Shown here: one piece after another, positions 31,277 to 58,436 of the stretch | Position numbering within the stretch: the stretch's first letter is position 1 | Layout of the letters: each line of letters starts with the position of its first letter | DNA from: Siphonodentalium dalli | Lineage: Eukaryota > Mollusca > Scaphopoda > Gadilida > Siphonodentaliidae | DNA length: 64,000 nt | Direction of reading: 5' to 3' | Assembly (NCBI GenBank): GCA_032622095.1 | Contig: CP136061.1 | Location: forward strand, 21,392,991-21,456,990 | Made by a program: the position numbers and the translations under genes | Notes under the pieces: model-generated | Databases searched by the model: none | The model's input: only the letters and a program-made list of their open reading frames with translations | Told to the model about the DNA's origin: nothing

Positions 31277-31284
31277 TTCTTACC

Positions 31285-36005: not shown

Positions 36006-36079
36006 GTAGGTATAATCTGATAAATGTATAGAGGATTCCTGCAGGTTTTGGTTCTATGCCATTGCTATTTCCCCACTAT

Positions 36080-38009: not shown

Positions 38010-38261
38010 CTTGATAAAGTCAAGTTTGAGCTGTTGCCATGTTTCCGTCAACAATGTTCAGGGTCACCTCTATATGGGAAATATCGAATTTGAACGATTT
38101 TTGATCGAATCATGTCCACCGGCAGCCATCTTAGATTTTACACTTTGCAGACTAAATCCTTTGGCACACCCTATTACCAACATTTTCTATTTAATATTGA
38201 TCCCCAACATCATGTGGGTCTTTGAAGTGACCTTTAGATGTGAGCTATCAAAATAAATATT

Positions 38262-38382
38262 GTTAGGCCAATGCATTCTCTTATACATGTGAGGCTCCCT
38301 GTGGGAGACACGGATATATAAGAGAATGCATTTGCACAGGGTTTTCCCAAATTTCTGGAATCTCCTGTCGTGGAAGGGTTAT
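38262..38382. mobile_element. TTAA-type MITE family C, right-hand fragment
   Basis: One hairpin (CCAATGCATTCTCTTATACA arms) and the right end CTCCTGTCGTGGAAGGGTTA. The left end is missing. Confidence 0.5.
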
Positions 38383-38426
38383 TCATTTATCTGTGTTTTA
38401 TATTTTATATTTATTGACTTTTGTAG

Positions 38427-38606
38427 GTCCCAAACGCTATCAGAAAGTGCCAAAAGTCTGGAATTACTGTGCGTATGGTTACCGGTGATAATATTAATAC
38501 TGCTAGGTCCATTGCTGCAAAATGTGGTATCCTGGAACCGAACAGCCAGTTCCTCGTTATGGAAGGCAAGGAATTCAACAGGCGAATTAAAGATCAAAAT
38601 GGAAAT
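38427..38606 (+). CDS. ATP2B: PMCA exon 8: P domain with VTGDN
   Basis: Sixty codons: [60 protein letters not shown]. MVTGDNxxTARxIAxxCGI is the conserved P-domain motif that positions the nucleotide and Mg2+. Phase 0 at both ends. Acceptor TTTTGTAG and donor AAAT|GTGAGT. Confidence 0.98.
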
Positions 38607-38782
38607 GTGAGTAATTGTATCTGATTGGACCGAATAGTATCTCTGCTTCTACTGATGAATATCTTGGATCAGTTTGATAACAGAACTGCACAAATTTTAT
38701 TTCAGGTGTTTCCTATAGTGTCAGATTTTGCGACATAAGCATAATAACTCTTAACGCAATATTTGATTTTGTCCAAATACAG

Positions 38783-39255
38783 TTAACCCTTTCAGTGTCA
38801 GGGGCCGATCTCATCGGCCCTAATTTACAGTCTAAAATCGGCCCTAAAAAAAATCTTTTTTTATTTGTTTTTTGTTTTTGTTTTAGATTTGTTTGGGTTG
38901 AATTTTTTTTGGGTATGCTTAAGCATGCTATAGCGAATTTAAAAACAAACTGGATAAAACCTTAGGGGCATGTTATAACTCAAAACTATAACCAAGTATT
39001 CATAGTAATAATTTTGATGCCCATGAAAAACGTAAGATTCCCTGGTACTAAACCTACAAAATAAGTCTGTTAAAGAATATAAGAACAAATTATTAAAATT
39101 GTAAAAAATAATAACAAATGATGAAAAATTGTTAGGCCAATGCATTCTCTTATATATGCGAGGCGACCTATGGTCGACTCGCATATATAAGAGAATACAT
39201 TGGCACAGGGTATATGGGTTGATACAAAAATCGGACCTGGCACTGAAAGGGTTAA
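38783..39255 (+). mobile_element. TTAA-flanked MITE, family B
   Basis: Full-length, like 951-1409: TTAACCCTTTCAGTGTCAGG, then GGCCGATCTCATCGGCCC, the internal CTTAAGCATGCTATAGCG, one hairpin, and CTGGCACTGAAAGGGTTAA. Confidence 0.82.
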
Positions 39256-39470
39256 TGGTTTCTATTCATTAACAACTTAGATGAGTTTGAAAAGCAATCA
39301 TGTACCTCCTTGATTATTTTCCTAATTAATAGATACCTACAGTGTTGTGCAAGCATAAATTTGTATGGATGTTTTAGTATGTATGTACATGCCTCACCAC
39401 TCTAGCCTGTAAAATGGTAGCACACATCAAACTTGGCTTGTTCAACAACTGCTGTAATAATGTAACTGTT

Positions 39471-39870
39471 TTAACCCTTTACCCAACAAACCGGCCAAAA
39501 CCGGCCAAATAAAGCTTCAACAGCCTAAATTATCTTGGGTCTGTCTCAATAAAACCATACAAATATGGATATCATTGGAACCGGCTCATTGACCACATTG
39601 TGATGGTTACAGTTATGCCCTGTGCCAATGCATTCTCTTATATATGCGAGTCGACCATAGGTCGCCTCGCATATATAAGAGAATGCATTGGCCTAAAAAA
39701 AATCTTTTTTTAACACTTTTTAATATTTTTTCTTACATTCTTTAACAATTTTATAATTTTTAATGTGTTAAGCCAATGCATTCTCTTATATATGCGAGGC
39801 GACCTATGGTCGACTCGCATATATAAGAGAATGCATTGGCACAGGGCCGTTCTGTTGGGTAAAGGGTTAA
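39471..39870 (-). mobile_element. TTAA-flanked MITE, family A, reverse orientation
   Basis: Complete, starting TTAACCCTTTACCCAACAAA and ending TTCTGTTGGGTAAAGGGTTAA in parts. Both hairpins are intact. Confidence 0.85.
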
Positions 39871-40025
39871 GAGCTTAGGGATTCATGTGATTAAGCGCTA
39901 TATAAAATCTATCCATTATTTTTATTAAAATTGTCTGATCCAGGAATCAAACATACGACTTTGTGGTCAATTATACAATGCTCAGAATGATTACCTTCTT
40001 CAATATTTCTTTCCTTTATTTTCAG

Positions 40026-40220
40026 GTTGATACCCAAAAATTTGACAGTGTGTGGCCTGACCTCCGTGTTTTAGCTAGGTCATCTCCACAGGATAAATAC
40101 ACATTAGTCAAGGGAATAATCGAAAGCAAACTGAACCCTAACAGGGAGGTAGTGGCTGTCACTGGTGATGGAACCAATGATGGTCCCGCTCTCAAAAAAG
40201 CTGATGTTGGATTTGCTATG
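40026..40220 (+). CDS. ATP2B: PMCA exon 9: P domain with [11 protein letters not shown]
   Basis: Sixty-five codons: [85 protein letters not shown] carries the aspartates that coordinate Mg2+ at the phosphorylation site. Phase 0 both ends. Acceptor TATTTTCAG, donor ATG|GTGAGT. Confidence 0.98.
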
Positions 40221-41092
40221 GTGAGTAAATTAGGCTTCTGCAAATCACTTTTTTCGTCAAATTGAAACAGAGGTCAGATTTCACATCGAATTTAACCACC
40301 ATAATTTAAAGTTCAGCGACAATAACCATTTGTTTTCGTTGTCGGCAATTATAGAAAAAATTATTAGTTATTTATCACTTCATCATGGCCCTACACTGAT
40401 TATACTAATGGCTGATTATACTGGAAAATTTTATTTATAAATGAAATCGGACTAGAATAAACCACTGAATACAAAAGAGGAAAAGAATTTCGGGAAATTA
40501 CGCCGAGACCAGGATGTTTAACTTTGGCATTTTACATGTGTGCAAGGAGAGGAATCCAATGTGTTCCTCATGATGGACGGTGAGTAGTTGGGATAAATCT
40601 ATTGTTTGTGTCATGGTGACATAGGCTCCTGGCCCTAGGATATAACAATTTCTTTGATGGTTATAACGAGATTGCCTAAATTTTGCCTGAAGTCTGTCTG
40701 CATAGAATTGAAAAACAATTATTGACTCAAGTCTGTTGTCTGTACAATGAAATTAGAAAAATCCCCTTAAGTCTGTCTGCAATTTAATTCTATCTTTAAC
40801 TTTTGTGTTATGACTTCTTGTTGTGCTTCCAATCTTCACGATGATGATGATTGGTTATTTGTATAATATTTACAAGCTTATGACCATGGTGATAGTTAAC
40901 AAAAATATTATATTAAACAGGAGTGGCATGGCCCAGATATGCCGACTTCCTGTCGCTCCAACGTATACAAACAAGGCCCTCAAGAAAATGTGATCAAGTC
41001 ATATTTACAATTTTCGGATTATTTTATTGGTAGTTGCACTATTCCAATTTTAGATTATCATTTTGAAGCTCAGCCCTGATGTCTAAGAAGGG
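40221..41092 (+). other. Intron stretch, nothing firm
   Basis: AT-rich. A fragment near 40915-40965 (GGAGTGGCATGGCCCAGATA...CTTCCTGTCGCTCCAACG) resembles 19040-19065. No other feature. Confidence 0.45.
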
Positions 41093-41113
41093 TGTAACGA
41101 TTAATCGTGACAC

Positions 41114-41586
41114 CAGGGTTCTCGCTGCCACTTGCCAAATTTGGCAAAACATATTTTCATTTGGCAATAGCTTTGGCAAGTCATTTTTAATTCTGCTAGG
41201 GAATTGAAAAATATTGGTCTATCAATACTATTAATTTCAGGAAACGTTTCCAATATAATTGCATTATAGTTGTGTGTTATAAGGTTTAAGAAAAGTTAAC
41301 ACCTCTACTAAGATGCAGTTAATCCGATACGATTAGTGTCGACAAAAGGAGGGATTACTAACTAGTATGTGTTGTTGTTGTTGTTCTTGTAGTTCTAATT
41401 CTCTTTGTTTTTGACAATTAAACCTAAGTTCTAAATCATATCGATATCAACAGTTGCACAAACAGCAATTGTCGAAATATGTCAGTCCATGTTGCAGAAA
41501 CTGATAGCATTTGGCAATTTCTAGAAGAATTTGGCAAAAAATATTTTCATTTGGCAAAAGTAATTTTTGGTCCAGCGCGAACCCTG
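41114..41586. mobile_element. hAT-type non-autonomous element, 473 bp
   Basis: CAGGGTTCTCGCTG at the left and CAGCGCGAACCCTG at the right, with the exact 8-bp direct repeat CGTGACAC at 41106-41113 and 41587-41594. Subterminal ATATTTTCATTTGGCAA arms are repeated on both sides. It contains a short TGTTGTTGTTGTTGTT tract. Non-coding. Confidence 0.88.
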
Positions 41587-41877
41587 CGTGACACATGTGT
41601 ATAACAATTCTTTCTGAAAAATCGTATCACAATATGTTATAAATGATGTATTGAAATTCACTTATTTTCATATTCTGAAATATATTGTCGACTACATGAA
41701 GTTCCTTAGCGGCTGTGATTGGTAAATCTAGCATTCAACACTAGAAAATAGTGTTCAACTAAAGCTTAATGATAAATTTAAATGTTTCAGTGTGACTATT
41801 TACCTTAGGAATGGAATGGTATGTTATTAGAAACGGAAATATTATACCAGGACACTATTAAAATTTTGTTATTGGGG

Positions 41878-42248
41878 GTTAAAGTGATGTGAAACACTCC
41901 GGTTGTGTGATCAAATAGAAATAAAGAATAATCTTGATCAGAGTTGTTATTTTTAATAATATTAATCCAAATTTACAGCACACACCGTCATTCTTATATA
42001 TTAATTAAATACAATGACTTTCGATCGTGAAATAATTTGCGTTAGTTTATCGCCGATTGTTGCGTCCCGAATCGGCATGTAAATATTTACAATTAAGTGT
42101 AGTTCAGACGATGATTTCTATGGAATGGTACGGTTGATTTGCTTGAGATTTTCGACGATGTTAGTAGAATGCTACATTCCTCCAGTAGGCGCAGCGCCTG
42201 CATACTAACTTGTCAATTTCAAGCACCCGAACAAGTCCATGATATATC
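41878..42248. repeat. Dispersed repeat (GTGAAACACTCCGGTTG family), copy 2
   Basis: Partner of 5158-5533 in the same order and orientation, with GCCGATTGTTGCGTCCCGAA intact. Confidence 0.65.
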
Positions 42249-42278
42249 TCTAAAACTTCAACAATTGTGTAAGTCTAA

Positions 42279-42608
<330 letters not shown>

Positions 42609-42615
42609 TAGACAT

Positions 42616-42823
42616 ATAGGAACCCTTTCTCGACTGGTACCGTGCCTTTGCAGCATTAAAGATCATGTGCCAGTGCATTCTCTTATATATGCGAGTCTCC
42701 CATAGGCCAATGTATTCTCTTCTATATGCGAGGCTCCCTATGGGAGACTCGCATATATAAGATAATGCATTGGCACAGTGTTTTCACAAAATTTCAGGAA
42801 GCTCCAGTTATGGATAGGGTTAA
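42616..42823. mobile_element. TTAA-type MITE, family C, left end degraded
   Basis: Left ACCCTTTCTCGACTGGTACC, hairpins with TCTCTTATATATGCGAG arms, right end CTCCAGTTATGGATAGGGTTAA. Confidence 0.55.
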
Positions 42824-42838
42824 AATAATTACTTCTTA

Positions 42839-43165
42839 TATATAGAGGATCTCACATGAGTTTCTATTTTATACGGAATTTATCAACCGAGTTCACTAAA
42901 TTCGATTTGAGCCGAGGTTTACCGAGGCTCAAATAGAATTTAGAGGACGAGGTTGATAAATTACGTATAAAATAGGACGAGTGTGAGATACCTTTTATCA
43001 CATGATCAAATAAACCCGAAGCAACGCGAAATATTCATCGAAAACAACAATCATAAACTACAGCGATCGCAAGTTATTTGAAGAACGCCGTGACGTCATC
43101 GCACGCGCTGATATTAAACGTGTCTATTACCGATAATGCTTTTATGGCCAAATTATGTGATAAAT
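42839..43165. repeat. Foldback-bearing dispersed repeat, copy 2
   Basis: Same order as 9119-9452: GATCTCACATGAGT, the foldback around GAGCCGAGGTTTACCGAGGC, and the tail with GTGACGTCATCGCACGCGC. The residual intron 43166-43504 shows nothing else. Confidence 0.7.
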
Positions 43166-43504
43166 CAATGTATGTGGTCTCACAGGAATGCAGTCCATCT
43201 TTTCTATTCCACACACACGATAAATATGACTGACTTTTTTAACTTTCGTATTATTCTCAATGAAATTTTGATTAATCACTTTGAATTTGACACCGTTATT
43301 AACAACCATGGGAACCTGATCATATTTATTTTTGGCTGAGTTATTTCTCTTTTTGACCAAAATGGTTTCAATATATGTACTAGTAATTATGTTTGAGTTT
43401 TTAATATCTTCAATATTTGGACAATGCTTTTGAAACTTGCTTTCATTATAATTTTTCATCGTTCGAATGACTCTTCTCTGAAATTGATATCCTTTATATT
43501 ACAG

Positions 43505-43718
43505 GACAGTCCTCTGAAGGCTATCCAGATGTTATGGGTGAATCTTATTATGGATACCTTAGCATCGTTGGCGTTGGCCACAGAACTTCCCAGTGAAGAG
43601 TTGCTGGAAAGAATGCCATATGGACGAACAAAGCCATTGATCTCACTCACTATGATGAAAAATATCTTGGGTCATTCTATTTATCAATTAATTGTTATAT
43701 TTGTGCTGTTATTCGCTG
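43505..43718 (+). CDS. ATP2B: PMCA exon 11: TM6 and TM7
   Basis: [71 protein letters not shown] plus one base. [11 protein letters not shown] in TM6 includes the asparagine and aspartate used for the single PMCA calcium site. RKPYGR-like [12 protein letters not shown] is the cytosolic loop, and the end is TM7. Donor GCTG|GTAAGT. Confidence 0.98.
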
Positions 43719-43808
43719 GTAAGTTGTAACTTGTAATTTATAATTTGAAAATAAATATGCTTACGATGTTTGCGAATAATGAATTTTAATCACCAGCAGG
43801 ATAGCCTA

Positions 43809-44209
43809 TTAACCCTTTACCCAACAGAAGGGCCCTGTGCCAATGCATTCTCTTATATATGCGAGTCGACCATAGGTCGCCTCGCATATATAAGAGAATG
43901 CATTGGCTTAACACATTAAAAATTATAAAATTGTTAAAGAATGTAAGAAAAAATGGTAAAAAGTGTTAAAAAATGTGTTTTTTTTAGGCCAATGCATTCT
44001 CTTATATATGCGAGGCGACCTATGGTCGACTCGCATATATAAGAGAATGCATTGGCACAGGGCATAACTGTAACTATCACAATGTGGTCAAGGAGCCGGT
44101 TCCAATGATATCCATATTTGTATGGTTCTATCGAGACAGACCGAAGATATTTTAGGCTGTCGAAGCTTTATTTGGCCCGTTTTGGCCGGTTTGTTGGGTA
44201 AAGGGTTAA
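43809..44209 (+). mobile_element. TTAA-flanked MITE, family A
   Basis: Complete copy; the ends and both hairpins are intact. Confidence 0.85.
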
Positions 44210-45045
44210 ACTGTTGAAGAAGCTATTCTTTGAGTGATGTTAATATTTTATTCACCATTATTTGGGGTGTATTTTGTTCATATTGTGACTAAAAACTTTT
44301 TCTGTCAATCAATCTAAAGCCATCCATTGTGTGTATGTCTTAGATTTTGAAGATTTATTTAGTTATTCTGAAAAATGTATTTCAAACTTTATTACAAAAA
44401 TGAAGTTAACACAATATGGGCCTTTGCTGTGCATTATACTAGTAGTATATGCAGATATTGCACCATTCACCAGGCATGTCAATACACTAATTAATCGATA
44501 TTATTCTATACATAATGAAGAAAGTAATGATAAGGCAATGATGAGTTGATGTCATCGTTATGATAGTCCCTACTATGTCAATATAGCTTTCTATCCAGTA
44601 ACTAGTGTTGAAATGATTTGTCGACATTGACGAATTGTTCACCAAAAGTCGACTCCAGAATCCGAAGTCGATTAGATGCATTAAATTTGAGCACGCACTA
44701 TGTATTAACAGAACAATGGTATTATACAATATACCAACAACAACAGTGTTAAAAGTTAAACCAAAAGCCGCTCTATTTAGTAGAATTACCAGTTATGAAA
44801 TTAACAATGTGGCTAATAAATATACATGGCTGCTTAATGGCCGATCAAAGATAACGGTACCGCTACCGCGCTTTGAAAACCTTTGGTGTTCATTCAATTT
44901 GTGTCATGTCACATGTAAATATAATGCACGCAGTGATATTAATTCAGTATGAGACTTTGAGTATGGACATAGCATGATGAATGTGTCATAATACAACGTT
45001 AAATGAGACACCTAGAAAGTAGTGACCATCGTGATATGTATTTGT
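44210..45045 (+). other. Intron stretch, nothing recognised
   Basis: AT-rich. The frames at 44331-44549 and 44635-44952 have no family resemblance and overlap opposite-strand frames. Confidence 0.5.
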
Positions 45046-45303
45046 TTAACCATTTCTATACTAAATAATCATTGACGAGTAGTAATCCCATAGGAAATGT
45101 TTAGATAATAAGTTCAACAAATGAGGTCGTTTTGTTGAACTTATTCTCGAAACATTTCCCTCCAATAAATGGGCATCCTTCTGCACTTTTATTATCTGTC
45201 GTCTGCCTATATTTTCCAAAACACACCTCCAGATGAATAATAGACCATTCCAATGTACACTTTCATGTTAGTAGGAGATTCCATTTAGTATAGAAAGGGT
45301 TGA
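45046..45303. mobile_element. TTAA-type foldback MITE, family E
   Basis: Left TTAACCATTTCTATACTAAA, right ATTTAGTATAGAAAGGGTTGA (last TTAA mutated). Inner inverted pairs: AATGTTTAGATAATAAGTTC / GAACTTATTCTCGAAACATT. Related sequence is at 49277-49707 and 22752. Confidence 0.6.
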
Positions 45304-45400
45304 GTATGAGTGATTCCTTCTTCTTCTATAAAGGTGCATTTACCGCAATTTTGTGTATTATCGCACAGATATTGATACTAACGTCGTGTTTTCGTTTCAG

Positions 45401-45612
45401 GCTCAGACATATTTAATATTGATGATGGTAGGGGAGCCAGGCTGCATGCACCTCCAACTCAGCATTTTACTATTATATTCAATACTTTTGTTATGATGAC
45501 TTTATTTAATGAAGTTAATGCAAGAAAAATTCATGGACAACGTAATATTCTAGAAGGATTAAATCGGAATCCTGTGTTCCTTGGTATCTGGATAGGTACA
45601 TTTATATCACAG
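45401..45612 (+). CDS. ATP2B: PMCA exon 12: outside loop, TM8, start of TM9
   Basis: (G)[70 protein letters not shown]. [25 protein letters not shown] is a PMCA signature (TM8 and cytosolic loop). Vertebrate PMCAs have MMQLFNEIN, here MMTLFNEVN. Acceptor TCGTTTCAG, donor CACAG|GTATGT, phase 0. Confidence 0.98.
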
Positions 45613-45645
45613 GTATGTATATATCCCATGCAAGAATGAGTTTAA

Positions 45646-46070
45646 TATGTCTGACATATGCAGAATGAGGTCCCCAGAGGGTGAATTTAGTGATGCTATC
45701 ATGCATATTGTGTTAGCATCACCAAATTCACCTTCTGGGGACCTCATTCTGCTCAGGCCTCATCTTCTCTGTAAGTTTCTTTGTTATCAAATTTCTATGG
45801 AAACTTCTTCAAATAGATTCTATTTCTTATTAGTTTAGTTTCACTATATCCCCAAATTTTCAGACGACACATTGCATAATCAAGATTCCCAATCGGTGTA
45901 CATCACAATATTCACCATTTTGGAACTTCAATCTGAGTTCTATGTCTCCCATAGCAATTATGAGGCCATGTAGAATGAGGTCCCCATAGGGTGAATTTTG
46001 ACAGTATCACTAAATTCACCCTCCGGGGACCTCATTCTGCAAATGACAGGCGCACTAAGCTCAGACTTGA
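45646..46070. mobile_element. Long hAT-like foldback element, diverged
   Basis: Left hairpin GAGGTCCCCAGAGGGTGAAT...ATTCACCTTCTGGGGACCTC, a spacer with TCTATGGAAACTTCTTCAAA, and a shortened right hairpin around TGACAGTATCACTAAATTCA. The terminal regions are diverged (CAGACTTG at the right). Confidence 0.6.
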
Positions 46071-46319
46071 TCCCATGGCAGGGACTCTTTAATTAGACTA
46101 TGGATAATTAAGTTTAATATGTTTTGTGTCATCCAGGATTCTGAGAATTAGATGCGAAATGCGGTGATTATTCCTTTTTAGTTATCCTTGATTGGTTTCC
46201 GAAGTTACTTATGTTACAATGTAATTATAATATAACATAAATATTAACACCAATCTTGTTTACATTCATTTTATATGAATGAAGCAAATTTTGTTATGTC
46301 CTATCATCTGATATTGAAC

Positions 46320-46680
46320 ATTTGCACAATGAGGTCCCAGAGGGGGATTTACTGATGCTGCCCCGCCCCGCACAGCGAGGTCCCAGGGGGGGATTTAGTG
46401 ATGCTACCCCGCCCCGCACAGCATTTTGCTTATGCCTCATCTCCTCTGGAATTTTTTTTAGTTTCTTTAGAAACTTCTTATGAAAGTTTCTTTTTCTTTT
46501 TTAGTTTAATTTCTTTATATCCCCAAATTGGCAGAGGACACATTGCATAATCGAGGTTCCCAATGGGTGCACATCACAATATTCACCATTTGGGAACTTG
46601 AATCTGAGTAGGTCTAAGCAGAATAAGGTCCCCAGAGGATGAATTTGGTGATGCTAGCCCTCTGTCCATTTAATTTAGAT
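46320..46680. mobile_element. Diverged fragment of the long hAT-like element with local duplication
   Basis: GAGGTCCCAG(A/G)GGGGGATTTA and CCCCGCCCCGCACAGC are repeated at about 46330 and 46378. Then the spacer (GTTTCTTTAGAAACTTCTTA) and the beginning of the right hairpin (GGTCCCCAGAGGATGAATTT) follow. 46681-47135 holds nothing recognised. Confidence 0.5.
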
Positions 46681-47135
46681 ATATTACATAAATTAATGTA
46701 AATTAGGCTGATATCGTATTGCATGTGTTTGTTGTCAAATGTATGGATGGTGACACAATTATGAAATATATGTTACAGATAGGTCAATAGTCATTTTCAG
46801 ATGATGGGTCAGTTATGTGGGGGTGTCTTTCCTTAGCAACCATGAGCCCGTTGCTAGGCACATATCTGGCATTGAAAATACTAAATTTCGGCCTATTTTT
46901 GGACTGAATATGACTTGGAAGTGCCTAATATAACACACTTGAAGACCAAATCATATTTTGACGACCCCCTATAGTATTGAGATTGATGGAAGGCTGGTCA
47001 CTGAAGTGTTGTAACGGTTGCCATGGACCTACCCTACCATATTGCGTAGGAAGATTGTTATGATTAAACTTGTTATATTATGAGTCTTTGCTTTATAAAC
47101 TATAGTGGTAACAACTCTTTTGCCTTGCATTGCAG

Positions 47136-47243
47136 ATTATTATCACGCAGTTTGGCGGTATAGCTTTTAGCACAGTAGGTCTAACGCTGGAGCAGTGGTT
47201 CTGGTGCATGTTTCTAGGATTAGGAGTTCTTCTATGGGGTCAG
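47136..47243 (+). CDS. ATP2B: PMCA exon 13: TM9/TM10
   Basis: Thirty-six codons: [37 protein letters not shown](V)I(V)QFGG...L...QW.WC.F.G.G.L.WGQ matches the end of TM9, the outside loop and TM10 of PMCAs. Phase 0 both ends. Acceptor CATTGCAG, donor CAG|GTGAGA. Confidence 0.97.
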
Positions 47244-47277
47244 GTGAGATTAATCTCCTTAATACTCCTTAATCTCC

Positions 47278-47551
47278 TTAACACTCTTTTGTGACGAGAG
47301 CTGCGCTTGTGCAGCATTAAAGATCATGTGCCAGTGCATTCTCTTATATATGCTAGTCTCCTATAAGGAGCCTCACATATTTAAGAGAATGCTCTGGCTT
47401 ACAAGGTCAAGGTAAATATTGTAAGGCCAATACATACAATACATTCTCTTATATATATGATGCTCCCTTAGTGAGACTCGCATATATAAGAGAATGCATT
47501 GGCACAAGGTTTTCGCAAAATTTCAGGAAGCTCCAGATATTGAAGGGTTAA
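47278..47551. mobile_element. TTAA-flanked MITE, family C
   Basis: Left TTAACACTCTTTTGTGACGA, right CCAGATATTGAAGGGTTAA. Hairpins with TCTCTTATATATGC arms. Directly preceded by a short duplication CTCCTTAATACTCCTTAATC. Confidence 0.6.
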
Positions 47552-47772
47552 ATTTAGAGTCTCTTCACAGCTAAATTCACAAACAACTCAATGATTAATT
47601 ATATGTTTTTCCCATTAGCACAGATTTCTATATGTGTTACAATGAAATTGGGGGCCAATCATTTCCATCAGGACAGGGTTCGCGGTCAAACGGCGGGCAT
47701 TTACAGATTGCGATAACTTGGAACAGATATCAACTGATTTTGTTGTTATTCAGTATATGAGACTTGCTCAAC

Positions 47773-47921
47773 AATGTCTTGAAATAGGGTGTCTGTCATT
47801 TGCAGAATGAGGTCTCCAGAGGGTGAATTTAGTGATGCTACCCCGCATAGCAGGCTAGCATCACCAAATTCACCCTCTGGGGACCTCATTCTGCAAATGA
47901 CACACCCTATTTCAAGGCTTG
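47773..47921. mobile_element. hAT-like single-foldback MITE
   Basis: AATGTCTTGAAATAGGG...CCCTATTTCAAGGCTTG with one ~105-bp hairpin. The flanks TGCTCAAC and TGCTCAGC match 7/8. It may derive from the double form by loss of one hairpin. Confidence 0.7.
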
Positions 47922-48007
47922 TGCTCAGCAATGTCTTGTTAGAGTTTGAAAACTGGCCCGGTTCACATATTTTAGGTGGAGTTACAGCCCTTGATATAAT
48001 AGTTCAC

Positions 48008-48416
48008 TTAACTCTTTCAGTGCCAGGGGCCGATCTCATTGGCCCTAATTTACAGTCTGTAGAGTGGCCCTAAAAAAAAATTAAAATTAAAAAAAAAATT
48101 TAAAAACAAACTGGATAAAACCTTAGGGGCATGTTATAAATCAAAACTATCAGCAAGTATTCATAGTAATAATTTTGATGCCCATGAAAAACGTAAGATT
48201 CCCTGGCACTAAACCTACAAAATAAGTCTGTTAAAGAATATAAGAAAAAATTATTAAAATTGTAAAAAATAATAACAAATGATGAAAAATTGTTAGGCCA
48301 ATGCATTCTCTTATATATGCGAGGCGACCTATGGTCGACTCGCATATATAAGAGAATGCATTGGCACAGGGTTTATGGGTTGATACAAAAATCAGACCTG
48401 GCACTGAAAGGGTTAA
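48008..48416 (+). mobile_element. TTAA-flanked MITE, family B
   Basis: Left TTAACTCTTTCAGTGCCAGG, right CCTGGCACTGAAAGGGTTAA, one hairpin. The CTTAAGCATGC segment found in other copies is deleted. Confidence 0.8.
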
Positions 48417-48429
48417 CAGACTGTTACAT

Positions 48430-48515
48430 TTATGTCACATTGGTGTTGGGGTATGCTGGTGTCCATAGTACAATGTGGGGGTATGCCAGCACACATGGTG
48501 CAACCTCTTGTTTCT
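48430..48515. repeat. 3' end of the CCGTCC-family repeat
   Basis: GGGGGTATGCCAGCACACAT-GGTGCAACCTCTTGTTT carries the conserved terminal hairpin (GCACACATGGTGC). The rest of the element is missing, or is upstream of the MITE. Confidence 0.5.
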
Positions 48516-48572
48516 AATTTAGCAGTGAGATTTATTTCTTATTGTAACTGATGAATTCTTTTTATCCTGCAG

Positions 48573-48752
48573 CTTGTAACGTCTGTTCCCACGAGCAAAA
48601 TTCCCAAAATATTTGAGTTTGGTGATAGCAAAGAAGCAGAATTAGATGAGCCAGATATTTGTGCTCCAGCTGGTAGTGGCGATATTGATGACGTTAATAA
48701 AGGTCGAGGTCAAATTCTGTGGGTGCGCGGTCTCACGAGATTACAACAACAG
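48573..48752 (+). CDS. ATP2B: PMCA exon 14: C-tail and first half of calmodulin-binding site
   Basis: Sixty codons: LVTSVPTSKIPKIFEFGDSK, EAELDEPDICAPAGSGDIDD, VNKGRGQILWVRGLTRLQQQ. RRGQILW(F)RGLNRIQTQ is the first half of the vertebrate PMCA calmodulin-binding helix, with the anchoring tryptophan present here. The exon ends in phase 0 right after QQQ, the same protein position at which vertebrate splice site C operates. The preceding acidic stretch is variable in the family. Confidence 0.97.
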
Positions 48753-49276
48753 GTATGGTCATTTTCTTCATATGAGATTTCGCTCATAACGTCATGTAGT
48801 TTCCATTTGTAATCAATTTGGATTCATATCTATTTGATTTACTATCATCTGGTGCCCTGATGTAAAACTTATGATTCGGTTTGATAATTCTAGCATCGGT
48901 AGTGACAAATTAATGTATCTGTTAGTTGAGTAACCCCAGTGATATCTTTCTCAGCAAGTGAAAGATACTGGATTTTTTTATTATTTATTTCCTTCTTTTT
49001 TTTTCCTTACACCTACCAAATTCGTTCTAGTGTAATGTCTGGGACAGCTTTTGATGTTCCCTCCCTAATATATGTCAGTGAACGTGTATAAATGTTACTT
49101 ATCACGTCTTTTGGAATTTAATATGCAGGACAGTTGAATTCCTTGTGTACAAGTGACATAAAAATGTCAAAATAATCTATGGAAACTACAGATGTGTGTT
49201 ATTGATGTTATTCTACACTGTGTCGTCATGTCTGGTGGAATAATGTGCCTGTTTCTTCTCTCGATACTAAGTGCTA
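48753..49276 (+). other. Intron stretch, nothing recognised
   Basis: AT-rich unique-looking sequence with donor GTATGG at its start. Confidence 0.5.
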
Positions 49277-49707
49277 TTAACCATTTTTACACTAAATGGA
49301 TTCTCCCATTCAGTTATAAAGTATACTTCGGTACAGTCTATTATTCATATGGAGAAATGTTCTCTGAATATAAGTAGACAACAGATAATATAAATGCAGA
49401 AGGATCCATATTCATTGGGGGGGAGATGTTCTGATATGGCCATTTGTTGAACGTTTTATCTTAACATTTCCTAAGGGAACTACTCATCAACGAGTATTTG
49501 GTTCTAAATTCATTTACAAAATACTCATTGACGAGTAGTTATCCCATAGGAAATGTTCCCCTCCAATAAATAGGACCCCTTCTGTACTTGTATTATCTGT
49601 TGTCTGCTAATTTATTTCAGGACACCCCTCCAAATGAATAATAGACTATCCCAATGTATACTTTTATAACTGAATGGGAGAATCCATTTAGTAAAAAAAA
49701 GGGTTAA
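49277..49707. mobile_element. TTAA-type MITE(s), family E
   Basis: Left TTAACCATTTTTACACTAAA, right TTTAGTAAAAAAAAGGGTTAA. Inside is a second copy of the ACTCATTGACGAGTAGT(T/A) block (49517) like that at 45066, and inverse blocks ACTACTCATCAACGAGTA. Probably one element with internal duplication, or two merged copies. Confidence 0.55.
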
Positions 49708-49944
49708 AAACATTGCACTTAATGTTGAGAGAACTTTGTACATGTACATGTTGTCTGATTGGTGACTGAATTCATGTTGATTTTATTCAGATTTGTCTAT
49801 ATCCCACTCATCCAAATCATAGTTCTTTTCAGTTTAATTTAATTAGCTTAGTCTCAGGATTACACTAAATTCATTTTAGCTAGTTAGTTTAATAATTTAC
49901 CATTTTTCCTTCATTTGACAATGAATCACTGTCATATTTCCCAA

Positions 49945-50747
49945 GGCCAGGAACGTACTTCATGAATCAAGTCTCTAATCCAACGCGGATTTGATTTTAA
50001 ATTTATTTAAAACATATATAACCATTTGTCTGACAGGATAAATTAGTACATTAGCTGTGGAAATTCACAATGCATATTCAAAAATCAGTAATCGTTAAAA
50101 ACTCATAAATATAACTGAAATTTACCATGAAAATAGGTATCGATTATACCCCGAATTGAACATGAGACACACATTTCAACATCAAACACACCTCAACCAT
50201 TTACTAGATGTTCGTAAAATACACTTAATTCCATTCACTCGCAAGTTAACCCTTTACCCAACAAACCGGCCAAAACCGGCCAAATAAAGCTTCAACAGCC
50301 TAAAATATCTTCGGTCTGTCTCAATAGAACCATACAAATATGGATATCATTGGAACCGTCTCCTTGACCACACTGTGATAGTTACAGTTATGCCCTGTGC
50401 CAATGCATTCTCTTATATATGCGAGTCGACCATAGGTCGCCTCGCATATATAAGAGAATGCATTGGCCTAAAAAAAATCTTTTTTTACCATTTTTTCTTA
50501 CATTCTTTAACAATTTTATAATTTTTAATGTGTTAAGCCAATGCATTCTCTTATATATGCGAGGCGACCTATGGTCGACTCGCATATATAAGAGAATGCA
50601 TTGGCACAGGGCCGTTCTATTGGGTAAAGGGTTAAATAACTCTTGCAACAAATATCCAGCTCATCCACTACTGAGTTCCAGATAGCAACTATATCCGAAG
50701 GTCTGAAGCGACGTTTTAGAGATTACATTAGTGATAGGTTCCTGGCC
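49945..50747. mobile_element. Satellite-linked dispersed element, copy 2
   Basis: The left end GGCCAGGAACGTACTTCATG-AATCAAGTCTCTAATCCAAC is an array-2-like unit. The right end GGTCTGAAGCGACGTTTTAG...TAGTGATAGGTTCCTGGCC is an array-1-like unit. The outer GGCCAGGAAC / GTTCCTGGCC are inverted repeats. The body matches 27933-28264. Interrupted by the family A MITE 50246-50635. Confidence 0.8.
50246..50635 (-). mobile_element. TTAA-flanked MITE, family A, nested
   Basis: Complete reverse copy inserted in CGCAAG-TTAA-ATAACTCTTGC. The uninterrupted paralogue reads CGTAAGTACAATAACTGCTGC at 28144-28164, consistent with insertion at one TTAA and its duplication. Confidence 0.88.
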
Positions 50748-52149
50748 ATGTCTCCTATTCCTTTGCAGGCTGTTGAAATTATCTGGACGTCATCACTAAA
50801 ATCGTTATTATCTATAGTATGCTTCATCTTTGTTTAAATTAGGTAAACATTTTGTTCTTTGGACAGAATTTATAGATTTCATCTTTCAGAAAATAAATTT
50901 TCAAAGTTTCTGAAAGTTTGGGAAATGGAACGTAAAAATTAAAGGGGAAAAAAAGGTATCCATGGTAACAAAAAAATTATTCTATTGTGATAATTGTTCC
51001 ACTGTAAGTGCCTCCGCAGACGCTGCAATATTATATCGCAGATGGGGGGGAACACAGGTGGAGAAAGGTGGCAAGCCTGCAGATGCTGCGATGTTAGACC
51101 CTTCTACTAGTTGAAGTTCTGTACAGTATCTTGGTCTGTAGGGTGAAAACAAAGAAAAAAAGGCAAAGGGTTATATTTCAATCTCCTCATTATGCCATTA
51201 TAGATGATGTATGGCATGTATCTCAAGTTTCTAAACCAAACACTAGGCTATTTTTATATTTGAACTTGGAAGTTGAACTTGGAACAATAACTTATATTTT
51301 TTATATATATATATGTTTTATTTTGTACTCGTCAGTTTCGGCACTGCTTTCACAATGTCAGCAATCACGGTGGGAATACGGCCCTCTTCTCTCTGACGGC
51401 ATAGCAACAGGCAGAAACATATAAACACTCCCTTTCCTGCCTCAACTCAATTAAAAGTGTCTCCTATGAAGAAGTCCTATGGGTTGAATTTGGTCGTAGC
51501 ATCTGTGGTGGCACTAAATAAGGGACCATTCTCAAGGATTCAAATTGAGAGAATTTAATTCTCACTACTGGTCTCAGCATCTGTGTGAAGTCTTAAAAGC
51601 TGTAGTTCACTTGACGCCTCAACATCTAATCATATATATGCATTAGTTCTCGTCTTTGAAAACAGAAATCCTAGAATACTGTCTGTTCTCTCGGGCAAAA
51701 AAAAACTTAAGTGCGGCTGAGACGTGACACTTTTCAGGGAGAAAAATCACTGATGTCTCCCTCTTGGCTGGTCCGCGTTCTAAAATCACTGATGTATCCC
51801 TCTCGGCTGGTCCTCGTTCTAAAATCACTGATGTCTCCCTCTCGGCTGGACCTTGTTCTAAAAACAATTAAAACATTGCAGTGATACATTTGTCTTAATT
51901 GTTTTCTTTCCATATCTGTAGGATTTGAATTTGAAAATTTTCATGATCTGACATGTTTTTTGTATTTTATTTTGCATGTGTTTTGAAAAGTTAACAAGAT
52001 TTTATTGGATTATATTTTTTATGCATGGACAACCAATAACTGGTGTGAGTTTAGCTGTCAAAGTTGATTTTGTTTGGTGTTCGGAGTTTCAGTGTTTGTC
52101 TGGCTTTTCTTTAATCCATAAACACATCCTTACTTTCTTTACTTGACAG
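50748..52149 (+). other. Intron stretch before the proximal last exon
   Basis: Mostly unique AT-rich sequence. It contains the 39-bp triple repeat at 51744-51862. It ends with a pyrimidine-rich tract and acceptor CTTGACAG. Confidence 0.55.
51744..51862. repeat. 39-bp tandem repeat, three copies
   Basis: Unit AAATCACTGATGTCTCCCTC + TCGGCTGGTCC(T/G)CGTTCTA, starting at 51744, 51783 and 51822. The length is a multiple of three, so a minus-strand frame reads through it with a 13-residue repeat, but nothing else supports coding. Confidence 0.85.
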
Positions 52150-52503
52150 CTGCGAGTTGTGAAGGCTTTCAGGAGCCTCTTGGAAGATATAGAGGACAAA
52201 CGTAGCGTTCACAGTCTACACAGTTTCAACAGTCTGCGTACCTCGCGCAGTCATCACGGACCCCGACCAATCAGTGAAATAATCGGGCATGATAGGGCCT
52301 TCAATGCACCGTCCTCTCGTTCTCTTATGAACAATATATCAGAGTTAGCAGCGTCATCGGGAAGTTCACGACTCCGTAGCAATAGCTCTGAGCTAGTCCC
52401 CTTAGTTTCTAAAAAGAAAGCTCACACTACTGTGTCGAGTCCCAATATCAGAACTTCGCCCGAAGACGCTAGAAAAAACAGCTATACTGAGACCAGTATA
52501 TGA
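52150..52503 (+). CDS. ATP2B: PMCA proximal last exon: calmodulin-binding second half, ETSI end
   Basis: 117 codons plus TGA. It opens LRVVKAFRSLLEDIEDKRSV, completing the calmodulin-binding helix in the manner of vertebrate 'b' forms (IRVVKAFRSSLYEGLE). A serine/arginine-rich tail follows (HSLHSFNSLRTSRSHHGPRP, later SSGSSRLRSNSSELVPLVSK). It ends SYTETSI*, a class I PDZ-ligand-type C-terminus comparable to ETSL/ETSV of vertebrate PMCA b forms. It has RSVHSLHSF and several RxxS sites that could be kinase targets (inference). Confidence 0.96.
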   Translation: MRVVKAFRSLLEDIEDKRSVHSLHSFNSLRTSRSHHGPRPISEIIGHDRAFNAPSSRSLMNNISELAASSGSSRLRSNSSELVPLVSKKKAHTTVSSPNIRTSPEDARKNSYTETSI

Positions 52504-53925
52504 ATTCAGTATGACAACCACTCTCCACCTAACGAATGGGCAAATTAATCAGGGCTCGAAATATTCTCATGTCACCGTTATTTGAGAGTTTTTATTCTTG
52601 AGATGGTATGTGGAAAACCTTCAGACTTGCACATGTGTTAGAATTTAAGGTGACATTTTTGTTCCAATTTTTCTTTTGGGATTTTGAGAACGTCTCGGAT
52701 CTGATTGGAGAAAAATATTTTCAGTGTTGGTTTAATTTTTTTGTTCTGAACAACTGAAGTTGCAGATATTTCGCAATAACTGTATTGAAATATAAAATAC
52801 AATATATCTCTGAAAATGAATGCTGTATCAGGAAGTTAAAATATAACAATTAGGCAAAGGGTGTCCCTTTATATCGTTTATAAAAAGTTACTTCATTTAG
52901 ATTCAATCTCCAACATATACTCAGTATTAATTGTGGAGAATACACGATGAGTTAGTTTGTCGCGGCGTTATGGATATGTCTATACCTTTATGTAGGGTGG
53001 AGAGTGTTTTGTTTTGTTGAATCTTTGTTACAATTATACATTGTTGATTATTTTTGCATATCACTATTGAAGCATGTTGATTAACAATAACTTCTATGTT
53101 ATTTTAAACAGTGTTGTGTATCGAGATTTTGGAATAGGCAGATGCTGATTGATATTATTTGATCTTATGTCTTTATTAACTAATTATAAATTTTTCGTTC
53201 ATCATTTTTTTTTCACAGGATAAATCTTTTTAGGTCAAGAAATTAATAACAAGCATACTAAACCTTGTACATTGACATACTTTCTTATGTAAAATAGGTT
53301 CAGAATATATAAACCCAACTAAAAGTATGATAATGATAACAAATACTTCAAACTCTGAGCTGCAAGTGCAACATTTCCAATTGGTTATCATTGAATTTAG
53401 GTTTGAAAAACAATATTCATCATGTCGCGAACTTCTGCTATACATGGATCAAACTATGTTGTTGTGACAGTCTGTTAGCTCCCTCCGCTCGTTTGACACC
53501 CACTTAATATTGTGTGAGATTGTGTTCAATATTGGTAAACAACGTTCTGTTTTGCTGTTGTCATAACACCTGAGAGTCCCTATCATTTGACGTGCTAGAC
53601 AAATTATTGTGTCTCTGCTTAGATCTGTAATTTGTTGGTTCCATTATTATTATTATTCATCTTGGGACTTTCTGTTTAAATATTCATGCACAAATTCCCA
53701 TCGTATTAAATCAGTTATTTCAGCGAACATTTAGCTTTCTTGTCTTTAAGTTTTTCAGAAAACGAAGCCAACAAAATTCTTAAAAGTACAACTCAATGCC
53801 ATCCCTAACAGGTCCTATGTTATCTCAAAATCACTTAAATTTTTCAGTACAAACATTTTGTTCTTAAAGAAGTTTGCTTATATAAAGTTTTCTTGTTGTG
53901 AAATAAAGAATGATCACCCAAGTTG
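52504..53925 (+). other. Probable 3' UTR of the proximal isoform
   Basis: AT-rich sequence following the stop, with no transposon ends, in contrast to the introns. It runs to the AATAAA at 53902. The exact cleavage site is unknown. Confidence 0.55.
53902..53907 (+). terminator. Candidate poly(A) signal AATAAA (proximal isoform)
   Basis: AATAAA ~1.4 kb after the stop, followed within ~20-30 bases by the GT-rich AAGTTGTTTTC. A canonical arrangement, but not proven. Confidence 0.5.
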
Positions 53926-54107
53926 TTTTCACCTGAATATTAAATTTAGATTTTATTTGTTTCTAATTAAATGTGCCTCCTGACATAATGAGCAATATGT
54001 CTAATACGGTGAAGTAAATTTTGAAAATTAATATGTAAACAAATTTAGGGAAGCTGTCAATGTAAAAGTGTGACGTTGAATTTCAGCATATTTAATGAGA
54101 ACCTGTT

Positions 54108-55265
54108 CCGGGCTGTAACGATTCATTGTAGTTCTTGGTAGTTTACCGTTCAATGCATAACATTTGGAATGATGTTTATGCAGTCTTGATTCGTCTTGCC
54201 ATGTTTTATCTAGAGCCCAGAAAACCTGGAATTCCCTTGAATTTGACAAATGACCAGAAGTCAAGATCTGGAAAGTGCTTAAATTACGACCTGGGGGGGG
54301 AGGGGGGGGATTGGGGTCTTGATTAGCCTTGAATTTCGATATTTGCACGGCTTGCTGAAGTTGTAATAACTTCAATTTCACTTACTATATCTTATTGAAG
54401 GGTCTTAAAAAAAACAAGCATTGGGTTTGAATAACCTTGAGTTTATTATCTGAGGGGCTTTATCTTTGGCGATATTTGCACAACTTGCTGAACTTGTAAT
54501 TATTACGATCTAATTGAATGGTCTTGAAAAAAACATTAAAATTGTCAAGCACTTGACCTGAATAACCTTGAATTTTTTAACTGATGCGAGGTCCTTAAAA
54601 AACCTTAAAACTTGTTGAAAAATGGCCTTTTATAGCTTTGAATTTTATTAATTATAAGCTGTGAGAATCCTGTTTAACCCTTTACCCAACAGAACGGCCC
54701 TGTGCCAATGCATTCTCTTATATATGCGAGTCGACCATAGGTCGCCTCGCATATATAAGAGAATGCATTGGCTTAACACATATTAAAAATGATCAAATTG
54801 TCAAAGAATGCAGAAAATATTATAAGAAAAAATGGTAAAAAGTGTTAAAAAAAAGATTTTTTTTAGGCCAATGCATTCTATTTATATATGCGAGGCGACC
54901 TATGGTCGACTCGCATATATAAGAGAATGCATTGGCACAGGGCATAACTGTAACCATCACAATGGGGTCAATGAACCGGTTCCAATGATATCCATATTTG
55001 TATGGTGTTATTGAGACAGACCCCAAGATATTTTAGGCTGTTGCAGCTTTATTTGGGCGTTTTTGGCCGTTTTGTTGGGTAAAGGGTTAATATGCCGATA
55101 CAAACGCTGATGAGAAGAAACTAATAATATGAGAGCAGTACATGGCATTTACAACCTTCAGTTTTCTGAAATTGCATTGCGTTGCACACCCAATCATATC
55201 TCTCACTCGTAAGAATAAACTCATGATTCACGCCGATTTGTGATAGTGAATCGTTGCAGCCCGAA
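54108..55265. mobile_element. Possible hAT-type element (GGGCTGTAACGATTCA ends) with nested MITE
   Basis: CGGGCTGTAACGATTCA at the left and TGAATCGTTGCAGCCCG at the right are inverse of each other with one mismatch. The interior contains CTTGAATTT/CTTGAAAAAAAC-type repeats (54210-54670, related to 61813-62183) and the family A MITE at 54674. No clear target duplication. Confidence 0.55.
54674..55090 (+). mobile_element. TTAA-flanked MITE, family A
   Basis: Complete ends. The spacer with CAAAGAATGCAGAAAATATT resembles the copy at 291-747, suggesting these two form a subgroup. Confidence 0.85.
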
Positions 55266-56259
55266 ACACCTCCAATACTCAATTAACTGGCAGGAATTAT
55301 TCTCAATACATGGAAGAATCCAGAGATTTATTGGGGATACATTTCTGCAATTTGAGAATGTCCCCATATAAATTGGGATGGTTAAATATTTCTTACTGGA
55401 TTCTTGATTGTACAATTAAAGGCTCTACATATACTGCATATCGATGATTGCATTGCATTCTATTCAATTTGGAAAAATTGCCTTCAAAATGTAGAAAAGT
55501 AAGATTGAATATAAATACTGTCAACTAGTAATTTGGGGACATTTGAGCTTCCACGGTTTGTGCACCAAAAACTGTAACGGGTTTCAAAACAGCCCTGGAT
55601 TCTTCCCTTTCTAAATTCTCTGAAAATTTACTTTAGAAAGTTTTGAGATACTGTAACTAAGGTTAATACTCTCCATGCATCTTTGGAATTTGATCCTTCC
55701 ACGATGATCTGGACATCATCAATAAAAACGTGAGACGCCTCCAGTATTTTGAGTATTGAAGAAAATGTTGATAAACCATATATGGCTAATAAATAAGATG
55801 CTTAAAGCCACATGGCGGTATGTGCTCCAAAATACACCTAATAATATTCACTTTTTAATTTTACCCAGTACCGAAATAGGTTTATAAATACCTTAACTGT
55901 CTTTCTAAGAGCATTATATGTCACAGAAAAATGCATTGAAGTCATAAAAAATACAAAGGAATTCTGGAATCTGAATGGAATGGTTGGAAAAGATCCATTG
56001 CGTTATCTTAACATGAAACTATTTTAAAACATCACTCTCTGCTTTATCGTCATTTTAATCAACAAAATTATGCGACGACAGCTCTAGATTTTCTTCCCTT
56101 GGTCTTCATTTCCAGTTTTTACATGACCGCTTACTAAAAACAAATTATCCAGTAAACGAAACCATATAATTTATCAAATAATATAAGACACAAAGCATGT
56201 AATCTCAGCACATTATCGACGAATTGTTTCGAAATCTTCCATGTAGGTATGTTTTGAGA
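55266..56259 (+). other. Intron stretch with one dispersed-repeat fragment
   Basis: 55802-55960 (AAAGCCACATGGCGG...CCAGTACCGAAATAGGTTTA...GCATTATATGT) resembles 58510-58660. The rest is unrecognised. Confidence 0.5.
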
Positions 56260-56416
56260 TACAGTAATGCCCTAATTAATCGACTCCATAACCACAGCAG
56301 AATTATGGGTAACTTTTCAGGATTTAGGTGGAAATATGGCTTGTTGCCATTCATCCTGAAAAGTTACCCATAATTCTGATGTGGTTATGGAGTCGATTAA
56401 TTAAGGCATTACTGTA
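56260..56416. mobile_element. TA-flanked foldback MITE (mariner-like), short form
   Basis: TA-CAGTAATGCCCTAATTAATC...GATTAATTAAGGCATTACTG-TA. The centre has lost the left GAAAGCTCTC arm and one side of the inner arm, giving 157 bp instead of ~210. Confidence 0.8.
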
Positions 56417-56995
56417 CCTCCTACCAAACTTTTCGGGTTCGAACAAGCAATGTCCATTTACTATATCTTCACTCTTTGGTTCTATATTTTTCATAAGAAA
56501 GATTAAAAAAGAAATATTATTCTATAATTCATGCTATCAATTTTTGGTCTACTTTCAAATTTACACTTGATCCTATTGGTCACGCTGTTATCACACACTC
56601 CGTTGTAATAACACTTTTAATGGCATCGTATCTTATTTGTTTGTTTGATAGTCATATTATTGTTCATATACTGTTCATTTTGTTTTCACAGTTCACCATA
56701 GCAGCTGTCTATAGTCCCCTTTATTGTATTTTGTAGTATATTTTGTTTGTAGATAACAAAATGAGTTGTTATATTGACTGAAACCAATTCCCAAAACTGC
56801 TGACTTAGCGACGATTTCTCAGCAGAAAATGATGCTGATGACGAGAACTCAGGAAATCTCAACCAAAATATGTTATTAACCTCTTTTTGCATGCTGTTCA
56901 TCAAATGACTTTGGAAGACTTATTATTTGAGTTGTCTCTGTTAGGCACAGTGACAATGCTTGTTCTTTAGTCTCACAGTGAAAGTCGAAAGAGCT
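56417..56995 (+). other. Intron stretch, nothing recognised
   Basis: AT-rich, with no element termini. Confidence 0.5.
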
Positions 56996-57210
56996 TTAAC
57001 CCTTTCAGTGCCAAGTCTGATTTTTGTATCAACCCATATTTCCTTGATCATTTTTCAAATTTATTGATTATAATAATGTGATACATTGATGGAAAGAGCT
57101 CTTGGAGCTCTTTCCATCAATGTATCACATTATTATAATCAATAAATTTGAAAAATGATCAAGGAAATATGGGTTGATACAAAAATCAGACTTGGCACTG
57201 AAAGGGTTAA
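56996..57210. mobile_element. Short TTAA foldback, family B ends, 215 bp
   Basis: The same length and almost the same sequence as 2229-2443. Near-perfect palindrome centred on GAGCTCTTGGAGCTC. Confidence 0.85.
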
Positions 57211-58032
57211 GCATGTCTGTAGGTGACGTAGTGAATTCTACAGCCAAACTTAGATGGATTATAGTATAGCTAAAATAGCCTGCTCTTCTTCTCATTTGCA
57301 TATTAAGTTATCTCCCCAAGTGAACTAGGGACCCAGTGGTTTGGTCAGTAAGGTGTATAACTGTCCAGCAATGGCAGAGCTAGTTCAATTCCCAATAGCT
57401 GCATATTTTTTATCTATGCGAAGGGAGAATATTATAATTGGTGTATCTGAGTAAATTTGTCAGTTGATTACTGTTGTGTCTGAGGTTTATATATGCAGTG
57501 CAATGATTTTCAATGAAATTAACCATCTTAACTGTTTTTCTTCCACCAATATTGGCAATAAAACTGACAACATTGCACATGGAAACAATGATAAACCAAA
57601 CTTTACAGTGAACCATCCCTCCATAAATGAGTTGATTTATACATGATAAATCTGGTATCCCTCCATAAATAAGTTGATTTATCATGCTAAATCTGGTTGC
57701 TTCCATTCATGTTTCACTCGGCACAATCTATGGCAGGTCCATGCCAATGAAGATTATTTTGGAGTATTTATGGATCATTTTCAGACTTGATATTCTTATC
57801 ACTGTAATCGGGTGAATTTCAGAGATAATTTCTGGCTTCAACTAATGCAAATTTTGAAGTGTATACCAAATGAGAAGAAGAACGGCATATAACGGTTTGA
57901 CCTTGACATCCCCCATCTTGTTCCGTCTGAGTTTATATTAATCATCAGTAACAACTTGTTTTGAGTAGATATAGAATTGATATGTTTGGTTTTTGTCCCT
58001 TAACAGTGTTTGTGTTCTGTTTCTGCTTTCAG
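57211..58032 (+). other. Intron stretch before the distal last exon
   Basis: Contains a ~42-bp direct repeat with CCCTCCATAAATGAGTTGAT / CCCTCCATAAATAAGTTGAT at about 57607 and 57659. Ends with TTCTGTTTCTGCTTTCAG, a strong acceptor. Confidence 0.6.
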
Positions 58033-58197
58033 ATCCGTGTCATTAATGCTTTCCGCATGGGCTTGTATGACAACCATAGTCTGTCTTCACAACAATCTCT
58101 TCAAAATCTTAGGCAGATGTATAAAAGACCTGCCACCTCGGCTTCCCAAGATCTAATCCAGCCATCATCCTCTAACGTAGAATCCACAGCACTTTAA
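58033..58197 (+). CDS. ATP2B: PMCA distal alternative last exon: second calmodulin-binding variant, ESTAL end
   Basis: Fifty-four codons plus TAA, phase 0, so it can replace the exon at 52150: IRVINAFRMGLYDNHSLSSQ, QSLQNLRQMYKRPATSASQD, LIQPSSSNVESTAL*. IRVxNAFR again completes the calmodulin-binding helix after LTRLQQQ. The following SSQQSLQNLRQ resembles the arrangement in vertebrate 'a' tails (VVNAFQSGSSIQGALRRQ). The two exons cannot be spliced together usefully because the proximal one has its own stop and no donor was seen. Confidence 0.92.
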   Translation: MRVINAFRMGLYDNHSLSSQQSLQNLRQMYKRPATSASQDLIQPSSSNVESTAL

Positions 58198-58430: not shown

Positions 58431-58436
58431 AATAAA
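58431..58436 (+). terminator. Candidate poly(A) signal AATAAA (distal isoform)
   Basis: AATAAA 234 bases after the TAA stop, in AT-rich sequence. No strong GT-rich element follows, so this is tentative. Confidence 0.35.

Follow-up and report, generated by a model that had tools for sequence, protein, structure and literature searches.

A stretch of 64,000 nt from contig CP136061.1 of the scaphopod mollusc Siphonodentalium dalli (GCA_032622095.1, positions 21,392,991 to 21,456,990; the whole stretch is called the window here) contains the C-terminal part of a PMCA gene, in which the calmodulin-binding helix is split between the last constitutive exon, exon 14, and a set of real, mutually homologous terminal exons, as judged from the exons themselves, their reading frames, the strength of their splice sites and their homology. 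There are three of them, alt1, alt2 and alt3 (Table 1), and we consider it probable (about 0.78) that they belong to a single gene, in which the donor at 48752 is joined to any one of the three, each with a tail of its own. A preliminary description of this DNA had proposed two separate terminal exons approximately 5.5 kb apart; both are present, with 5529 nt between the stop of alt1 and the start of alt2, but the count was incomplete, as the third exon lies beyond the window.

Exon 14 (LVTSV...GRGQILWVRGLTRLQQQ) ends in phase 0 after LTRLQQQ, as had been described; this is confirmed by its translation and by the adjoining donor CAG|gtatgg. With a score of 5.2 this donor is the third lowest among the 14 constitutive donors of the gene, which would suit a regulated site. 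The coordinates given earlier for alt1 (LRVVKAFRSLL...YTETSI, then stop) and alt2 (IRVINAFRMGL...ESTAL, then stop) all check as well, and each of these exons has a strong acceptor, an open frame in phase 0, its own stop and the sequence that completes the calmodulin-binding helix. In a comparison of all AG-preceded open 13-mers of the window (2846, both strands counted) with the helix segments of human PMCA1 and PMCA2 only, 58033 ranked first (score 49) and 52150 second (41), with the next candidate at 21. The acceptors were scored with a matrix built from the gene's own 14 constitutive acceptors, whose leave-one-out scores range from 1.2 to 13.5; alt1 obtained 10.8, alt2 10.4 and alt3 11.5. 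Among the 726 AGs in 48760-63990 the acceptor of 52150 is 2nd and that of 58033 4th, and among the 2075 AGs in 48760-90000 alt1, alt2 and alt3 rank 4th, 8th and 2nd. The Pfam family PF12424 (cut-off 22.9 bits) matches exon 14 alone with 25.8 bits; alt1 and alt2 taken alone fall below the cut-off (19.8 and 17.8 bits), and joining to exon 14 raises the scores to 63.7 bits for alt1, 61.7 for alt2 and 58.2 for alt3.

Alt3 was found 14.9 kb beyond the end of the window, by scanning 40 kb further along the same contig. Its product, preceded by the acceptor ctctttttcctgtttcag, reads IRVVNAFQMDLDSMHLDSYDKRSRPSVISLQSLQTQQKVMFKRPNLASSPEADESPASPWFGRQESIPYADADQ and then stops; the tail has 74 residues, ends in ADADQ and carries FQ in place of FR. 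In a helix scan extended to 264 kb (the window and 200 kb downstream; 12,303 AG-preceded open 13-mers, both strands, human references only) the three exons took the first three places, all on the + strand, with scores of 49, 41 and 34, the next being 24. No fourth terminal exon stood out in the 200 kb downstream of the window, and before the window, over 20 kb, the highest 13-mer score was 24. An annotation restricted to the window would lose alt3.

Alt3 aligns with the tail of alt2 and, less strongly, with that of alt1, which suggests that all three exons are related beyond the helix. The alignment of alt2 with alt3 spans 58 columns with 38% identity (tblastn E 8e-5 in 184 kb), and 6 of 5000 shuffles were as good for the tails beyond the helix; alt1 and alt3 are nearer the limit (tblastn E 0.03-0.09, tails 51/5000). 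Within the helix the protein is conserved at the expense of the third codon position: in the first 8 codons alt1 and alt2 have 3 mismatches at the first codon position, 0 at the second and 6 at the third, and of 20000 copies carrying an equal number of random substitutions only 5 (7 in a repeat) matched the protein as well. Over 46 aligned codons alt2 and alt3 share 21 identical residues and mismatch at 19, 17 and 26 sites by position; this excess at third positions is only mild, so the tails appear to evolve rather freely. Lying side by side in one gene as homologous exons, the three are candidates for a tandem duplicated exon substitution, in which such exons would be used mutually exclusively in transcripts. 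In protein searches of the genome (2.23 Gb in 9 contigs) alt1, alt2 and alt3 each retrieved itself and not one another, so further diverged copies may exist elsewhere; the alt2 and alt3 queries gave one extra match each, at chance level (E 1.56 and 9.95). Likeness among the 200-nt flanks of the exons is uneven across six comparisons (from 6 to 498 of 500 single-base shuffles were as good) and possibly reflects base composition. No relatives of alt2 were found in viral contigs, and an Rfam scan of 48500-58500 gave no match at gathering scores.

The 14 constitutive exons joined to alt2 score 819.8 bits against TIGR01517, the curated model of PMCA-type pumps (cut-off 507.05), and match six Pfam families (PF00689, PF13246, PF12424, PF00702, PF00122 and PF08282). 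Together with a tail the exons encode approximately 870-930 residues, depending on which tail is taken; the N-terminal part of the pump (TM1-TM2 and the A domain) would lie upstream of 16821, outside the exon set. In the genome search exon 14 matched only once, and the catalytic exon 42396-42587 once in full and once in part, the partial match (57% over 35 aa, E 8e-4) lying on a different contig in an open frame that by its appearance we take to be Na,K-ATPase-like. Within the limits of a search in which only the best candidates are scored, the PMCA gene is most likely single in the genome, and since exon 14 has only one match, this one gene most likely serves all three tail exons. The first exon of the set, 16821-17018, contains a charged stretch (TDDVKVQIETGN...EEKKKK) at the position expected for splice site A and may correspond to the inserts reported at site A of bivalve PMCAs.

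In the likeliest mechanism the donor at 48752 would face three competing terminal acceptors, at 52150, 58033 and 78947, and the choice of the last exon would be coupled to polyadenylation: as each choice carries its own stop and 3' end, splicing and polyadenylation would be decided together. The use of the exons in RNA, this coupling and all effects on the protein we infer from the sequence. The best internal donors of the three exons score 2.0 (alt1), 4.6 (alt2) and 2.7 (alt3), against 3.4-9.9 for the constitutive donors. Candidate poly(A) signals (Table 1) count for little here, because such hexamers are frequent in AT-rich DNA, 13 of them lying between alt1 and alt2.

Each exon is predicted to rebuild the helix with both hydrophobic anchors, W and F, while the flank and the tail vary. 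The spacing from W to F is 17 residues in alt1 and alt2 (computed), and inspection places the F of alt3 likewise, so calmodulin binding should be retained in every product. The helix peptides of PMCA in PDB entries 2kne and 1cff match the joined sequences, and 2kne represents a peptide bound to calmodulin (PMC4465641). A switch of calmodulin affinity between the two window exons had been proposed earlier; both do complete the helix, but as the anchor spacing is kept, neither alt1 nor alt2 loses it, and a change of affinity is conjectural. Choice of alt1 would yield a long b-type tail with an acidic patch directly after the helix (LLEDIEDKR, charge -2 in residues 10-18) and the PDZ-type end ETSI; alt2 would give a short tail ending in STAL (GLYDNHSLS after the helix, charge -1 in residues 10-18), and alt3 a 74-residue tail with FQ instead of FR and without a PDZ-type end. 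Class I PDZ ligands have the pattern S/T-x-hydrophobic at the C-terminus. TSI of alt1 and TAL of alt2 both fit it and ADQ of alt3 does not, so the pair inside the window would make no on/off PDZ switch; the switch of PDZ targeting previously suggested for these two exons is not upheld, since only alt3 differs. A chance fit is possible, as the pattern is shown by 8/115 tripeptides of alt1 and 2/52 of alt2, the C-terminal one counted.

In the mammalian a variant the autoinhibitory domain is shortened, basal activity is higher and calmodulin sensitivity lower (PMC10690453), and among site C variants both autoinhibition and the kinetics of activation vary (PMC8428515). By analogy, pumps with alt2 or alt3 may be less autoinhibited than those with alt1. 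The most likely effect of the choice would be tissue-specific pumps that differ in autoinhibition, in the speed of activation by calmodulin and in anchoring to PDZ scaffolds. We give even odds to the fuller proposal that a three-way choice coupled to polyadenylation yields graded pumps, namely one with a b-type PDZ end, a short one with a weaker PDZ-like end and an FQ-type one without PDZ end. If it is true, one gene with three ends would do the work that site C does in four vertebrate genes.

Several observations weigh against a choice among three exons. The donor-like GT at 58064 inside alt2 (4.6) beats the weakest constitutive donor (3.4), and the distance between exon 14 and alt3 is 30 kb. 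The tails of alt1 and alt2 do not align directly beyond the helix (1985/5000 shuffles as good), and the random-substitution test is weaker for alt1/alt3 (166/20000) and alt2/alt3 (661/20000). A test of codon usage, with the constitutive exons as training set, could not tell alt1 or alt2 apart from stretches that are open by chance (as good as alt1 were 3 of 9, as good as alt2 144 of 265); its power is low, as the b-type alt1 fails it too. The missing codon-usage support for alt2 and the slight constraint on the tails of alt2 and alt3, seen in their mismatches by codon position, would agree with a situation in which alt1 alone is in use and the other two are left over from old last-exon duplications, unspliced or spliced at noise level. 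We regard this as improbable, because the frames of alt2 and alt3 are intact over 54 and 74 codons, their acceptors rank among the best of the region and the helix segment is conserved as protein although its third positions have changed.

Two other explanations concern the surroundings of alt1, and we think both very improbable. The presumed 3' UTR of alt1 contains at 52605 a donor-like site, ATG|gtatgt, that could yield a 3' UTR intron and scores 8.7, which is strong by the gene's own matrix; were it spliced to 58033, the 58033 exon would be 3' UTR in such a transcript. Yet 58033-58197 continues the phase of exon 14 and supplies the second helix half, needless for a UTR exon, and of all the explanations considered we give this one the least credence. 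Scarcely more credible is a looping mechanism based on the repeats at 50246-50636 (+) and 54673-55090 (-), which flank alt1 in inverted orientation, are 89% identical and have complementary arms as long as 141 nt; paired in the pre-mRNA, they would enclose alt1 in a loop and leave only the downstream exons to be chosen. The repeat occurs 11 times in the window. Neighbouring inverted copies likewise flank 8 of the 14 constitutive exons, for which no skipping is known, and the candidate poly(A) signals of alt1 precede the second copy; we rejected this candidate on account of the same inverted arrangement around those 8 exons. The choice of one donor among three homologous terminal exons is the reading we prefer.

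At vertebrate site C an exon is included before a shared last exon and the reading frame changes. The preliminary description had placed the cut in S. dalli at the same point but opposed the two mechanisms. The cut point is the same, at the same residue of the helix (RIQTQ there, LTRLQQQ here, in phase 0), but the vertebrate event itself is described as a choice between homologous exons that exclude each other, backed by peptides for ATP2B1 and ATP2B4, where they break PF12424 (PMC4465641), so the difference is one of exon arrangement and not of principle. In the human PMCA1 chain 6a69 MDVVNAFQSG follows RIQTQ and IRVVNAFRSS comes later, both in one protein. As in the a/b variants of ATP2B1-4, the alternative exons of S. 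dalli are homologous and one choice gives a b-type tail; in contrast, each alternative here is a terminal exon of its own, the b-type exon comes first and there are three. An optional exon running into a shared last exon with a change of frame was not found, since the three exons have their own in-frame stops and only alt2 a weak candidate donor. The tail of alt1 resembles the human b tail (44/5000 shuffles as good), and by sequence alt1 is likely the counterpart of the vertebrate b exon. Alt2 was considered as an orthologue of the a exon, but an ungapped likeness over 11 residues (182/20000) was lost in a gapped alignment of the tails (1571/5000). Alt3 resembles the a tail weakly (361/5000 shuffles as good), and we claim no orthology between either of them and the a exon.

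Outside vertebrates, fly PMCA and worm mca-3 appear on a list of gene families that have tandem duplicated exon substitutions, so that swapped homologous exons are annotated in the same gene family, while the swapped part of the protein and any terminal position are unstated in the available text (PMC9741552); there the recurrence of such exons is read as convergent. The a and b variants of Ciona Atp2b likewise come from one PMCA gene, change the tail after the calmodulin-binding domain and are used tissue-specifically; variant a, however, skips exon 21, with exon 22 lying further downstream, and none of the ascidian variants has a PDZ feature according to the authors (PMC6226504). Bivalves (Tridacna squamosa, Crassostrea gigas) are reported to have only one PMCA gene, able to give several isoforms, with an insert at splice site A, whereas the available portions of these papers mention no alternative last exons at site C (PMC5641333, PMC6987452). 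In the literature compared, which did not extend to the fly and worm exon structures, we found no description of a three-way choice of terminal exons in which the b-type one comes first. Switching of homologous exons at site C is already published for vertebrates, and the three-tail choice appears to be a new version of this switch, in which another gene architecture cuts the calmodulin helix of PMCA anew. With three natural tails on the same pump core, it would allow autoinhibition, the response to calmodulin and the anchoring to PDZ scaffolds to be compared. Should such exons occur in other phyla, they would help to settle whether bilaterians inherited site C switching from a common ancestor or acquired it several times, the latter being suggested for tandem duplicated exon substitutions in general (PMC9741552).

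Table 1. Features of the PMCA gene and of the repeat family around it (positions relative to the window).
Feature	Position	Strand	Remarks
PMCA-type pump, 14 constitutive coding exons	16821..48752	+	815 codons without stop; splice sites phase-consistent
Constitutive exons 1-7	16821-17018, 19671-19885, 22345-22480, 23512-23618, 28400-28641, 34569-34711, 35881-36005	+	
Constitutive exons 8-14	38427-38606, 40026-40220, 42396-42587, 43505-43718, 45401-45612, 47136-47243, 48573-48752	+	
Exon 14, first half of calmodulin-binding helix (...GRGQILWVRGLTRLQQQ)	48573..48752	+	shared donor at 48752
alt1, terminal exon, 117 aa, b-type tail, end ETSI	52150..52503	+	acceptor, frame, helix match, PF12424
alt2, terminal exon, 54 aa, end STAL	58033..58197	+	acceptor, frame, helix match, PF12424, alt3-homologous tail
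alt3, third PMCA terminal exon	78947-79171 (contig from 21471937)	+	helix scan, acceptor, own stop
Candidate poly(A) signal AATAAA, alt1	53902..53907	+	one of 13 AATAAA/ATTAAA in 52504-58032; weak
Candidate poly(A) signal AATAAA, alt2	58431..58436	+	weak, AT-rich sequence
Candidate poly(A) signal, alt3	80306		weak
~0.4-kb element, copies 1-6	291-747, 4758-5156, 6511-6910, 11230-11623, 17206-17580, 20582-20978		
~0.4-kb element, copies 7-11	37644-38009, 39471-39870, 43809-44209, 50246-50636, 54673-55090		

The ~0.4-kb element has the ends TTAA+CCCTTT(ACCC), and ten copies are 81-96% identical to the one at 50246; by its appearance it is presumably a piggyBac-type MITE. A near-perfect palindrome of 67 nt (CCAATGCATTCTCTTATATATGCGAG..., e.g. 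at 48298-48364, 50400-50466 and 54705-54771) occurs within this family and also within a second element, which ends in CCCTTTCAGTGCC; the palindrome arm has 73 matches in the window at <=3 mismatches, with 0 expected, and a 26-nt arm had no exact match in viral contigs. TGCATG, which we take to be an Rbfox-type motif, was considered as a regulatory signal near the exons and rejected: the window contains 43 copies against 41.5 expected, and at this chance level the two copies before alt1 (51973 and 52022) are uninformative by themselves. A perfect inverted repeat of 106 nt with a 3-nt loop and TTAA+CCCTTT ends lies at 56996-57210. About 0.3 kb before alt1, at 51743-51866, there are three repeat copies with 39-nt spacing, of which the second is 93% and the third 89% identical to the first.

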